The notes under the pieces were generated by a model. That model ran no database searches and was not told where the DNA came from. It saw only the letters and a program-made list of their open reading frames with translations. The position numbers and the translations under genes were made by a program. 64,000 nucleotides of DNA from positions 1,860,001 through 1,924,000 of the forward strand of contig NZ_CP071872.1 in NCBI RefSeq assembly GCF_022647665.1. Reading direction: 5' to 3'. Origin of the DNA: Streptomyces formicae. Its GTDB lineage: Bacteria > Actinomycetota > Actinomycetes > Streptomycetales > Streptomycetaceae. Positions within the stretch are counted from its first letter, which is position 1; every line of letters starts with the position of its first letter. Shown here in pieces: positions 53,046 through 56,790 of this stretch.

Positions 53046-53257
53046 CCCGGGCGGGGTCCGACCCGGGCCACCCCGGCGGCCCTCGGCCCACCCCCCCCGG
53101 ACGGCCTGCTCGGGCGGGCCCGCACTATGGGCCCTGGGGGAATGGAAGACGGCGCCTGCCCGTTGCGTGACCACGGGATCGCCATGAGTTTTGAGCCATC
53201 AACTGTTCGATTCTTGCCCCAAAGGGGTGAGGTCGGTACGGGGAGGTAGACTTAACG

Positions 53258-53548
53258 GTGTCTGGCCGGACGCAAGCCCGCGCCTGCCCTGAGCGAACCT
53301 GCGTGGGATGCCGGGAGCGAGCGGCCAAGAGCGATCTGCTGCGCATCGTGGCGATCGAGGGTGCGTGCGTCCCCGATCATCGCGGTACGCTGCCCGGCCG
53401 GGGTGCGTATCTGCACCCCGCCTCGGTCTGTCTCGACTTGGCGGTCCGCCGCCGGGCGTTCCCGAGGGCCCTCAGGGTCCAGGGACCGCTCGATACCGCG
53501 GATGTACGCCTGGCCGTCGAGAAGACGGCGGCGCAGGCAGCACCGTAA
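53258..53548 (+). CDS. ylxR: YlxR family protein (DUF448), RNA-binding
   Basis: A 96-residue basic protein with the YlxR signature PERTCVGCRER near residue 11 and GRGAYLHPASVCLDLAVRRRAF. It binds RNA, and related proteins have been linked to RNase P and nucleoid regulation. It sits between nusA and infB as in most bacteria. The GTG has GGGAGG 12 bases upstream. TAGACT at 53247-53252 could be a -10 box, which would make the transcript nearly leaderless. Confidence 0.92.
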   Translation: MSGRTQARACPERTCVGCRERAAKSDLLRIVAIEGACVPDHRGTLPGRGAYLHPASVCLDLAVRRRAFPRALRVQGPLDTADVRLAVEKTAAQAAP

Positions 53549-53623
53549 GAAGAGAGAAAGCAGTACCGCACGGAACCCCATGCGGTCAGGTACCTCGCGA
53601 GTCGGAAGTAGGTCGAGATTGCG

Positions 53624-53666
53624 ATGAGCACTCGATGAGTACGCGATGAGTACGCCCATGAAGTAG
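53624..53666 (+). promoter_or_regulatory. Three overlapping micro-ORFs in the infB leader
   Basis: ATG at 53624, 53635 and 53646 each open a tiny frame: MSTR-stop (53624-53638), MSTR-stop (53635-53649) and MSTPMK-stop (53646-53666). Each stop overlaps the next start as ATGA. The 11-base spacing moves the chain through all three frames. The last stop lies five bases before the leader hairpin. The frames and overlaps are visible directly; whether they are translated is not known. Confidence 0.6.
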
Positions 53667-53670
53667 CAAC

Positions 53671-53721
53671 GGTCCGGCGGTAACCCGGACCTAAAAGGAG
53701 CGAAGTGGCTAAGGTCCGGGT
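53671..53721 (+). promoter_or_regulatory. Mutually exclusive hairpins around the infB ribosome binding site
   Basis: Structure A pairs GGTCCGG (53671-53677) with CCGGACC (53685-53691). Structure B pairs ACCCGGACCT (53683-53692) with AGGTCCGGGT (53712-53721), ten perfect pairs. B places the whole ribosome binding site and the GTG start in its 19-base loop. The middle strand cannot be in both. This is the layout of a translational switch; function is inferred. Confidence 0.6.
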
Positions 53722-56700
53722 ATACGAACTCGCCAAGGAGTTCGGCGTAGAGAGCAAGGTCGTCATGGCCAAGCTCCAAGAACTCGGTGAATTCGTCCGT
53801 TCGGCGTCCTCGACGATCGAGGCGCCGGTTGTACGCAAATTGACTGATGCTTTCCAGCAGGGCAGCGGCCCCTCCGGCCGTGCCGCAGGAAAGCCCGCGG
53901 CGCCGCGCAAGGCGACGCCCGCGAAGCCCGCCGCGCCCTCCCCGGCGCAGGCGGCGCGTCCCACTACCCCCAAGCCCGGCGCACCGGCCCCCAAGCCGGC
54001 TGCCGCCGAGGTTCCCAAGACTGCGCCTGCGGCCCCGGCCCCCGGCCCGCGGCCGACCCCGGGCCCCAAGCCCCCGGCCGCGCCGAAGCCGGCTCCGGTC
54101 ACCCCGGCAGCTCCGGCCGCTCCGGCCGCACCCGAGTTCACCGCGCCTCCGGCAGCTCCGGCCGCCGGTCCCCGGCCCGGTGCCACTCCCGGCCCGCGTC
54201 CGTCCGCCCGCCCCGGCCAGGGTGGCGGCCAGGGCGGTGCCCGTTCCGGCGGTGCCCCGCGCCCCGGCGGCGAGCGTCAGGGCCCTCGTCCGGGCGGCCG
54301 TCCCGCGGGTCCGCGTCCGGGCAACAACCCGTTCACCTCTGGTGGCTCCACCGGCATGGCGCGCCCGCAGGCGCCCCGTCCGGGCGGCGCCCCGCGTCCC
54401 GGCGGCCCCGGTGCCCCGGGCGGCCCGCGTCCGCAGGGCGCCGGTCAGGGCGGTCCCCGTCCGCAGGGCGGCGGCCCCCGTCCGACCCCGGGCGGCATGC
54501 CGCGTCCGCAGGCTCCGCGCGGAGCCGGCGGCCCCGGTGGCGGCCCGGTGGTAACCGTCCGAACCCGGGCATGATGCCGCAGCGTCCCGCTGCCGGCCCG
54601 CGTCCCGGCCCCGGCGGTGGCGGCGGTCGTGGTCCCGGCGGCCCCGGTGGCCGTCCGGGTGGCGGCGGCGGTGGCGGCGGTCGTCCCGGCTTCGCCGGCC
54701 GTCCGGCAGGTCCCGGCGGCGGCGGTCGTCCCGGCGGCGGCGGTGGCGGCTTCGGCGGCCCGCGTCCCGGTGGCGGCGGCTTCGGCGGCGGTCCCGGTGG
54801 CGGTGGCGGCGGCGGTCGTCCCGGCTTCGGCGGGCGTCCGGGCGGTCCCGGCGGCCGTGGTGGCACGCAGGGTGCGTTCGGCCGTCCCGGCGGTCCGGCG
54901 CGCCGTGGCCGCAAGTCGAAGCGGCAGCGTCGCCAGGAGTACGAGGCCATGCAGGCCCCGTCGGTCGGCGGTGTGATGCTGCCTCGCGGCAACGGCGAGA
55001 CCGTCCGTCTGTCGCGTGGTGCGTCCCTCACCGACTTCGCGGAGAAGATCAACGCCAACCCGGCGTCGCTCGTCGCCGTGATGATGAACCTCGGCGAGAT
55101 GGTCACGGCCACGCAGTCCGTGTCCGACGAGACGCTGCAGCTTCTCGCCGGCGAGATGAACTACACGGTTCAGATCGTCAGCCCGGAGGAGGAGGACCGC
55201 GAGCTGCTCGAGTCCTTCGACATCGAGTTCGGCGAGGACGAGGGCGGCGAGGAGTTCCTGGTCGCGCGTCCGCCGGTGGTGACCGTCATGGGTCACGTCG
55301 ACCACGGTAAGACGCGACTGCTCGACGCCATCCGCAAGACGAACGTCGTCGCGGGCGAGGCCGGCGGTATCACCCAGCACATCGGTGCGTACCAGGTCTC
55401 GACCAAGGTCAACGAGGAAGAGCGCCGCATCACCTTCATCGACACCCCGGGTCACGAGGCGTTCACCGCCATGCGTGCCCGTGGTGCCAAGTCGACCGAC
55501 ATCGCGATCCTCGTGGTGGCGGCCAACGACGGTGTGATGCCCCAGACGATCGAGGCGCTGAACCACGCCAAGGCGGCCGACGTGCCGATCGTGGTCGCGG
55601 TCAACAAGATCGACGTCGAGGGCGCGGACCCGACCAAGGTGCGCGGTCAGCTGACCGAGTTCGGCCTGGTGGCCGAGGAGTACGGCGGCGAGACCATGTT
55701 CGTCGACATCTCCGCCAAGCAGGGTCTGCACATCGACCAGCTGCTGGAGGCCGTGGTCCTGACGGCGGACGCCGCCCTGGACCTGCGGGCCAACCCGGAG
55801 CAGGACGCGCAGGGCATCGCGATCGAGTCCCACCTCGACCGCGGCCGCGGCGCCGTCTCGACCGTCCTGGTCCAGCGCGGAACGCTGCGCATCGGCGACA
55901 CGATGGTGGTCGGCGACGCGTACGGCCGTGTCCGCGCGATGCTCGACGACAAGGGCAACAACGTCGAGGAAGCGGCTCCGTCGACCCCCGTCCTGGTCCT
56001 GGGTCTCACCAACGTCCCGGGCGCCGGCGACAACTTCCTGGTCGTCGACGAGGACCGCACGGCCCGCCAGATCGCCGAGAAGCGCGCCGCCCGTGAGCGC
56101 AACGCCGCGTTCGCCAAGCGCACCCGCCGGGTGTCGCTGGAGGACCTGGACAAGGTGCTCAAGGCCGGCGAGGTCCAGCAGCTCAACCTCATCATCAAGG
56201 GCGACGCGTCCGGTGCGGTGGAGGCTCTCGAGTCCTCGCTGCTCCAGCTCGACGTCGGCGAAGAGGTCGACATCCGGGTGCTGCACCGCGGTGTCGGTGC
56301 GGTCACCGAGTCGGACATCGACCTGGCGACTGGCTCCGACGCCATCGTGATCGGCTACAACGTGCGCGCCGCCGGGCGTGCCACGCAGATGGCCGAGCGC
56401 GAGGGCGTGGACGTCCGCTACTACTCGGTCATCTACCAGGCGATCGAGGAGATCGAGGCGGCCCTCAAGGGCATGCTCAAGCCGGAGTACGAAGAGGTCG
56501 AGCTCGGCACGGCGGAGATCCGCGAGGTCTTCCGCTCGTCCAAGCTGGGCAACATCGCGGGTGTTCTCATCCGCTCCGGCGAGGTCAAGCGCAACACCAA
56601 GGCGCGCCTCGTCCGCGACGGCAAGGTCATCGCGGAGAACCTCAACATCGAGGGTCTGCGTCGCTTCAAGGACGACGTCACCGAGATCCGCGAAGGCTTC

Positions 56701-56790
56701 GAGGGCGGTATCAACCTCGGAAACTTCAACGACATCAAGGTCGACGACGTCATCGCGACGTACGAGATGCGCGAGAAGCCGCGCGGCTGA
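53705..56790 (+). CDS. infB: Translation initiation factor IF-2 (frameshifted in this sequence)
   Basis: IF-2 delivers initiator tRNA to the 30S subunit using GTP. The N-terminal part (53705-54574) begins [14 protein letters not shown] and continues as a Pro/Gly/Ala/Arg-rich linker. The second part (54571-56790) holds the G domain with [14 protein letters not shown] and NKID, then domains II-IV. A single missing base near 54547-54561 splits the frame. Restoring one C gives a continuous 1,028-residue protein, the usual Streptomyces length. A sequencing error is the likeliest cause because the gene is essential. The GTG start has AAGGAG four bases upstream. Confidence 0.9.
54541..54574 (+). other. 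Single-base deletion site and ATGA restart inside infB
   Basis: The upstream frame reads [15 protein letters not shown] then TGA at 54572-54574. Inserting one C in CGGCCCGG (about 54540-54548) gives the expected [15 protein letters not shown]. The stop overlaps an in-frame ATG of the downstream part (54571), so ribosomes could in principle restart there. Confidence 0.8.

Follow-up and report, generated by a model that had tools for sequence, protein, structure and literature searches.

Three serial mini-ORFs and predicted alternative hairpins precede infB in Streptomyces formicae and much of its class

Organization of the infB leader

The leader described here lies in a window of 64,000 nucleotides from Streptomyces formicae, i.e. 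the whole stretch of DNA that was analysed, between two genes which, from their translations and the operon order, we take to be ylxR (53258-53548) and infB. The infB gene encodes the essential initiation factor IF2, which drives translation initiation. A preliminary description of the region had given coordinates and pairings for three strands (A, B and C), the infB Shine-Dalgarno (SD) sequence, the GTG start codon and a 19-base loop, all of which are exact (Table 1). The larger feature of the leader, three mini-ORFs immediately 5' of strand A, is absent from that description.

Table 1. Positions in the window of the infB leader features
Feature	Sequence	Position	DNA strand	Remarks
mini-ORF1 Shine-Dalgarno region (probable)	GGAAGTAGGTCGAGATTGCG	53604-53623	+	conserved; best anti-SD duplex -6.6 kcal/mol in Streptomyces
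mini-ORF1	ATG AGC ACT CGA TGA (MSTR*)	53624-53638	+	chain test
mini-ORF2	ATG AGT ACG CGA TGA (MSTR*)	53635-53649	+	start overlaps mini-ORF1 stop as ATGA; without own SD
mini-ORF3	ATG AGT ACG CCC ATG AAG TAG (MSTPMK*)	53646-53666	+	start overlaps mini-ORF2 stop as ATGA; stop (stop 3) 4 nt 5' of strand A
strand A	GGTCCGG	53671-53677	+	5' arm of upstream hairpin
strand B	ACCCGGACCT	53683-53692	+	switch strand common to both hairpins
infB Shine-Dalgarno	AAGGAG	53695-53700	+	anti-SD duplex ≤-4 kcal/mol in 85/85 genera
infB start codon	GTG	53705-53707	+	
strand C	AGGTCCGGGT	53712-53721	+	infB codons 3-6; pairing partner of B

In the window sequence the A:B pairing comprises 7 bp and the B:C pairing 10 bp, and the loop of the B:C hairpin (53693-53711) contains both AAGGAG and the infB GTG. 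There is no U-run after A:B or B:C in the window, and transcription attenuation or an intrinsic terminator was rejected on this ground. Rfam covariance models gave no match at E≤5 for positions 53200-54000, and among seven loci the single match was sub-threshold (it scored 18.3 bits, the gathering score being 138), so that a known Rfam element was likewise rejected.

A small inverted repeat (53566-53585; CCGCA...TGCGG in the window, with variants in Streptomyces relatives) lies 5' of the conserved leader. The infB frame itself is split in the assembly, on the + strand, into 53705-54574 and 54571-56790, with an ATGA overlap at 54571; infB is a single frame of ~1040 codons in most relatives, so an assembly error in the Pro/Gly-rich linker probably accounts for the split. 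Short infB frames also occur in a few long-contig genomes (G118, G082, G154 and G145), and some same-genus genomes encode a second, more distant IF2-like N-terminus with 69-86% identity (G099:C679:24755, G027:C1:944902 and G222:C5:75103).

Sequences compared

The infB N-terminus was matched in 116/121 genomes drawn at the level of the genus, 61/61 of the family, 59/60 of the order, 107/118 of the class and 81/119 of the phylum, the draws overlapping. Leaders were taken from the best loci, at most 30, of each infB N-terminus comparison and from 115 further stretches; 60 same-genus (Streptomyces) loci, rather than every match, entered the counts. After start assignment these cover 223 in-class loci from 86 genera and 37 families, including the window (L015) and two loci (L185 and L246) that duplicate a genome already present. 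Outside the class, the best 21 of the 72 phylum genomes with a match were taken, and 16 were left after five with no start assigned (L199, L200, L202, L204 and L209) had been dropped. A named set comprises 80 loci, 79 from Streptomyces and one from Microtetraspora. Families and genera serve as kinship labels, families being given as f-numbers.

A chain of mini-ORFs

A chain was defined as three or more ORFs, each 3-14 sense codons long, linked through stop/start overlaps of 4 nt or 1 nt and located within 200 nt of infB. Such a chain is present in 221 of the 223 class infB leaders (86 genera, 37 families), and at all loci in 84/86 genera, compared with 165 of 17,200 dinucleotide shuffles (1%; one representative per genus, 200 shuffles each) and 0/16 infB leaders from other classes. 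By eye, the two leaders that fail the test resemble relaxed versions of the chain: in L181 ORF3 begins 2 nt after ORF2, and in L218 ORF3 exceeds the length limit. The junctions in 85 genus representatives are ATGA (162), GTGA (4) and TGATG (4). ORF1 has four sense codons in 74/85 representatives, ORF2 five (61/85) or four (19/85), and ORF3 six in 62/85.

With respect to a conserved arrest peptide, or stalling at particular codons, as in ribosome-mediated attenuators, the peptide of mini-ORF3 is variable (e.g. MSTPMK, MSTSS, MRSYN and MTRLQVQE in class leaders), but that of mini-ORF1 is often MSTR or MSAR. Very divergent chains are found in f27 (MKLK*, MSSLEL*, MRSYN*), f38 (METK*, VNGSK*, MRPVRD*) and f6 (MSTP*, VKSR*, MTMLHS*), and the chain is likewise kept in f36 despite very divergent sequence. 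As implied by the chain test, differences in leader length amount to whole codons. A strict Streptomyces leader pattern fits 79 of the 80 named records; the exception, L316, carries three extra nucleotides in mini-ORF1, inserted in frame, the chain being intact by eye. Retention of the chain in divergent leaders, together with length changes in whole codons, is as expected if translation, and not peptide sequence or DNA spacing, were under selection. A class-wide mini-ORF architecture is strongly supported by the sequence comparison, and the mini-ORFs are presumably translated.

In Streptomyces, the leaders carry CGATGAGYAC repeats, nearly invariant in sequence, at an exact 11-nt period. Judged from ORF2 lengths, the second repeat spacing is 14 nt in 61/85 genera, 11 nt in 19, 17 nt in 4 and 8 nt in 1; an 11-bp DNA repeat array was therefore rejected, since outside the Streptomycetaceae this spacing is mostly 14 nt and shifts by whole codons. 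A loose ATGA triple pattern occurs at 32 places in the S. formicae genome, two of which are the infB leader, compared with 15 in the control, so the pattern alone is not specific; its strict 11-nt version occurs at 3 places, against 0 in the control.

Ribosome entry

Potential ribosome entry sites were assessed from the strongest anti-SD duplex found within the 17 nt (-20 to -4) upstream of each start, with a genus mean of ≤-4 kcal/mol as the threshold. The means over genera are -6.2 kcal/mol for ORF1, -2.5 for ORF2, -2.0 for ORF3 and -8.2 for infB, and the threshold is reached by 75/85 genera at ORF1, by 1/85 at each of ORF2 and ORF3, and by 85/85 at infB. Since, among the mini-ORFs, only ORF1 has an SD, ORF2 and ORF3 are probably reached by termination-reinitiation, for which their overlapping stop and start codons are characteristic; ribosomes should then load at ORF1 and at infB, and probably enter ORF2 and ORF3 only by termination-reinitiation. 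Termination-reinitiation has been reported for overlapping gene pairs in archaea and bacteria (PMC6728339), and reinitiation at an AUGA overlap has been demonstrated in a mycobacterial reporter (PMC11260477).

Alternative hairpins around the infB start

In dinucleotide shuffles of the region from stop 3 to the SD of the window, an equally strong A:B pairing arises in 46/5000, an equally strong B:C pairing in 4/5000 and both in 2/5000. Taken alone, the placing of three repeats of one motif around a start codon is unusual without being decisive, and it is the comparison across genera that settles the matter. With respect to a start-enclosing helix, infB ranks second among the 163 longest-ORF starts in the window, many of which are not real genes, and 32 of the 1536 synonymous codings of infB codons 2-7 match the native strength of pairing with B. 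The B:C pairing is present in the unconstrained minimum free energy (MFE) fold of 53655-53760, the MFE of which, for the whole fold rather than B:C alone, modestly beats shuffles (z -1.9; 7/200 equally good); for 53549-53760 the values are z -3.3 and 0/200.

The helix that follows stop 3 begins within 12 nt of it in 80/85 genera, the gap measuring 0-4 nt in 64 of these and 5-12 nt in the other 16. A ribosome with a stop codon in its A site covers ~10-11 nt past the stop, so in most genera one positioned at stop 3 would cover strand A. With a footprint of this size, the leader has one characteristic of an attenuator, i.e. a leader ORF positioned to block one arm (stop 3 lying 0-4 nt before A in 64/80 genera). 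The other, two exclusive hairpins sharing a strand (here B), is found in the window and across much of the class; it is lacking in f13 and doubtful in f6, f38, f39 and part of f16. The A:B pairing beats shuffles at p≤0.05 in 48/85 genera and the B:C pairing in 57/85, with ~4 expected in each case, 37 and 28 genera, respectively, falling below that level.

Covariation is seen in both stems, at the levels of genus and family, including at a synonymous site in infB codons 3-6 relative to the leader, as the preliminary description had anticipated for a functional switch. For A:B, the third pair is T-A in 45 genera, C-G in 18, T-G in 16 and C-A in 1 (80 genera, 5 without anchors being excluded), and pairs 4-8 are Watson-Crick in 160/245 cells of 49 family-level rows compared with 143.4 in shuffles, none of 5000 shuffles being as high. 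The B:C test compared the wobble base of infB codon 5 (an Arg codon, in most cases CGN) with its partner in B, the register being set by the other positions. In a lax register (79/85 genera) the pair is Watson-Crick in 62/82 cases at genus level (45.0 expected, p<5e-5) and 28/42 at family level (18.9 expected, p=0.0005); in a strict register (48/85 genera) the values are 37/48 (29.0 expected, p=5e-5) and 18/25 (11.2 expected, p=0.00035). As shared ancestry survives the shuffling, these p-values are approximate.

The lax genus-level pairs comprise G-C 50, C-G 10, A-T 1, T-A 1, G-T 6 and 14 mismatches (G-G 7, A-C 2, C-C 2, C-T 2 and A-G 1), the mismatches including f3, f12, f14 and part of f16. 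The A-T and T-A pairs come from one locus each, L214 (of ambiguous register) and L190; the two genera of f35 have G-C and T-A, respectively. Noise is added by a loose choice of register, in that for f6, f20, L163, L214, L220 and some others the B taken lies 21-49 nt from the start, and some of the C-G rows (f6 and f20) rest on a doubtful register. Throughout the 161 distinct sequences of the Streptomycetaceae and the named set, Arg-5 of infB is encoded by CGG, which accounts for 2/322 of the Arg codons between positions 8 and 47. The third base of codon 6 is variable. Invariance is also seen at several other infB codons in the Streptomycetaceae, so codon conservation by itself is a weak argument.

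The B:C pairing is absent in 6 genera by the lax register test (in f13, f16, f38 and f39) and in 37/85 by the strict one. Family f6 has no convincing B:C pairing and still has the hairpin after stop 3; f13 is without A:B as well as B:C. Since these two families lack parts of the switch, the mini-ORFs must act there without this exact switch, and in f6, where the hairpin after stop 3 is kept, the output step has probably changed. Two f13 loci, L223 and L224, represent a natural loss of the switch, with three mini-ORFs retained and the hairpin gone. Overall, the mutually exclusive A:B/B:C switch first proposed for the window is supported by the pairing and covariation over much of the class, with the proviso that some lineages are without it.

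Calculated effect of masking strand A

In the window, opening of the infB start region (-16 to +14) is calculated to cost 5.1 kcal/mol with A:B formed and 19.0 kcal/mol with A masked, i.e. masking adds 13.9 kcal/mol, compared with 2.4 kcal/mol when the coding sequence is shuffled. Over 80 genera the median difference is 11.4 kcal/mol against a null of 3.9. The native value is above its own null mean in 79/80 genera, and in 53 it is reached by ≤1/30 shuffles (rank ≤0.05); masking of A gives no increase in opening cost in 3/80 genera. A chance origin of the leader architecture was rejected on the shuffle controls for the mini-ORF chain, A:B, B:C and these masking energetics. As B:C is often the more stable pairing at equilibrium, an open infB start would need A:B to form first and to persist, for which co-transcriptional folding would be a plausible route.

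Discussion

The mini-ORFs are more widely kept than either stem and are probably the sensor. The preliminary description had suggested that infB may be autoregulated by IF2 or may sense stress; we infer that any such autoregulation would operate through reinitiation, rather than through binding of RNA by IF2. Reinitiation with a mutant initiator tRNA in E. coli increased ~2.5-fold on overproduction of IF2, and the authors of that study suggest that, in their system, the requirement for IF2 may be greater in reinitiation than in de novo initiation (PMC2268962). The opposing 70S-scanning view, set out in a review, is that the factors for reinitiation are IF1 and IF3 rather than IF2 (PMC12548453).

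We propose, with the balance of probability about even, that a ribosome-occupancy switch in the infB leader exerts negative feedback on IF2 or on initiation capacity. Ribosomes would load at the mini-ORF1 SD, make a very short peptide, and enter mini-ORFs 2 and 3 by termination-reinitiation at the ATGA overlaps, each step needing fresh fMet-tRNA and IF2. With IF2 plentiful, many ribosomes would reach stop 3, 0-4 nt before strand A; a ribosome there would cover A, leaving B to pair with C and enclose the infB SD and start, so that translation would be low. When initiation is limiting, stop 3 would be empty and A, which is transcribed before its competitor C, would capture B first, leaving C free and infB translated. 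The sequences themselves show the conserved chain, an SD before mini-ORF1 and not before mini-ORFs 2 and 3, the position of stop 3, covariation in both stems and the calculated effect of masking A; that the mini-ORFs are translated, that A is masked by a ribosome at stop 3, that infB is closed when IF2 is high and that IF2 is what the leader senses are inferred. The serial initiation steps would give a steep response. It may be, though here we are more tentative and would place it somewhat short of an even chance, that the leader acts as a class-wide, translation-based counter, in which passage through three successive mini-ORFs would multiply the (re)initiation probabilities, and occupancy of the last stop would report IF2 activity in a steep, roughly cubic manner and flip the RNA switch that closes the infB start. 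Such a counter would be a sensor of initiation capacity made of initiation events, without a ligand, an arrest peptide or a regulatory protein.

The main rival to negative feedback is delivery of ribosomes to infB, with the opposite sign: a post-termination ribosome would melt the hairpin after stop 3, scan 20-66 nt and reinitiate at the strong infB SD, such that infB would rise with initiation capacity. The distance from stop 3 to the infB start (20-66 nt, median 43) is compatible with the scanning over >40 nt reported for E. coli (review PMC5972666), and in f13, which lacks the hairpin, stop 3 is only 20 nt from infB (as at L223). A ribosome at stop 3 in f13 would be near or on the infB SD, an arrangement compatible with control of the same sign as in the proposed feedback as well as with direct coupling. 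Against delivery, infB has a strong SD of its own in 85/85 genera, so that delivery is not needed, a helix lies ≤12 nt from stop 3 in 80/85, and calculations with A masked favour folds in which the start is closed; on balance we consider it unlikely. Slightly less probable in our view is that the chain senses another variable, e.g. ribosome recycling (via RRF, EF-G or IF3), initiator tRNA, ppGpp or initiation-inhibiting antibiotics, with the same A/B/C output. IF3 reduces reinitiation in E. coli, where the process also depends on a formylated initiator tRNA (PMC2268962), and very short ORFs may be sensitive to recycling; the location of the switch before infB, together with the dependence of reinitiation on IF2, would make IF2 the simplest variable.

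Two further alternatives concern which parts of the leader function. The B:C pairing may be a by-product of a chance likeness of A and C, with A:B alone functional, a reading compatible with both ribosome delivery and the sensing of another variable. Its loss from several lineages, and the codon-5 mismatches in f3, f12, f14 and part of f16, would fit with this, but the excess of genera in which B:C beats shuffles (57 against ~4) and the covariation of the codon-5 wobble base with B make it improbable. That the leader acts only as RNA structure or DNA, with the CGATGAGYAC repeats serving as a structured RNA or as an 11-bp array for protein binding and with the ORFs merely incidental, would account for the exact period and near invariance of the repeats in Streptomyces. 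It appears very improbable, given that over 85 genera the second spacing is mostly 14 nt and varies by whole codons, that f27, f38, f6 and f36 hold the chain with very different sequences, and that the L316 insertion in mini-ORF1 is of 3 nt and in frame.

With respect to known systems, in erm leaders the alternative RNA hairpin that forms is determined by a ribosome occupying a short upstream ORF. The wblC/whiB7 uORF of actinobacteria similarly involves a ribosome on a short upstream ORF choosing between alternative hairpins; as described, the whiB7 leader has a stalling uORF that acts on a terminator, whereas the infB leader has three overlapping ORFs, a variable last peptide and no terminator, and its readout would be the frequency with which ribosomes arrive at the last stop. 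The prfB gene, encoding RF2, is autoregulated by frameshifting, i.e. there is feedback on a translation factor through its own reaction; the frameshift is inside the gene, whereas in infB the mini-ORFs are upstream. As for infC, autoregulated by IF3, an initiation-factor gene would be translated via a step controlled by its product. The start codon of infC, ATT or, in Streptomyces, ATC, is unusual and subject to discrimination, and through it IF3 represses its own gene (PMC5472188), whereas infB starts at a normal GTG and has a leader relay; feedback of such a general kind thus exists for another initiation factor.

The stop/start overlaps in the infB leader are the same as those reported for termination-reinitiation at ATGA/TGATG overlaps (Huber 2019, PMC6728339) and for uPPE2-ppe2, where PPE2, like mini-ORFs 2 and 3, is without its own SD (PMC11260477). 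In the described cases the overlap joins an ORF to a gene and raises translation of the gene; by contrast, in the infB leader the overlaps join mini-ORFs to one another, and the gene, which has an SD of its own, starts 20-66 nt downstream. The operon to which infB belongs, rimP-nusA-infB, has been reported to be regulated by a transcription attenuator before its first gene, rimP (PMC2965389), whereas the infB element is located just before infB and has no U-run. Among the open-licence PMC papers listed in literature searches, we recognised no description of mini-ORFs before infB, which is not proof that none exists. Attenuation and termination-reinitiation are both known; as far as that literature shows, three serial mini-ORFs feeding a start-codon switch are a new combination.

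The SigR regulon of Streptomyces includes infB by name (PMC5472188), and in Mycobacterium abscessus the region upstream of infB is listed as a WhiB7 ChIP peak with a value of 1.26 (PMC10727445), so infB may also have its own promoter. A 2019 study of E. coli begins with the statement that nothing was known of how cold induces infB (PMC6511841). If the proposed feedback is correct, the leader, present in 37 families, would be a general initiation homeostat for the class, including antibiotic producers, and an unusual case of serial reinitiation as a sensor. The infB leader makes the gauging of initiation capacity by cells directly testable with reporters.
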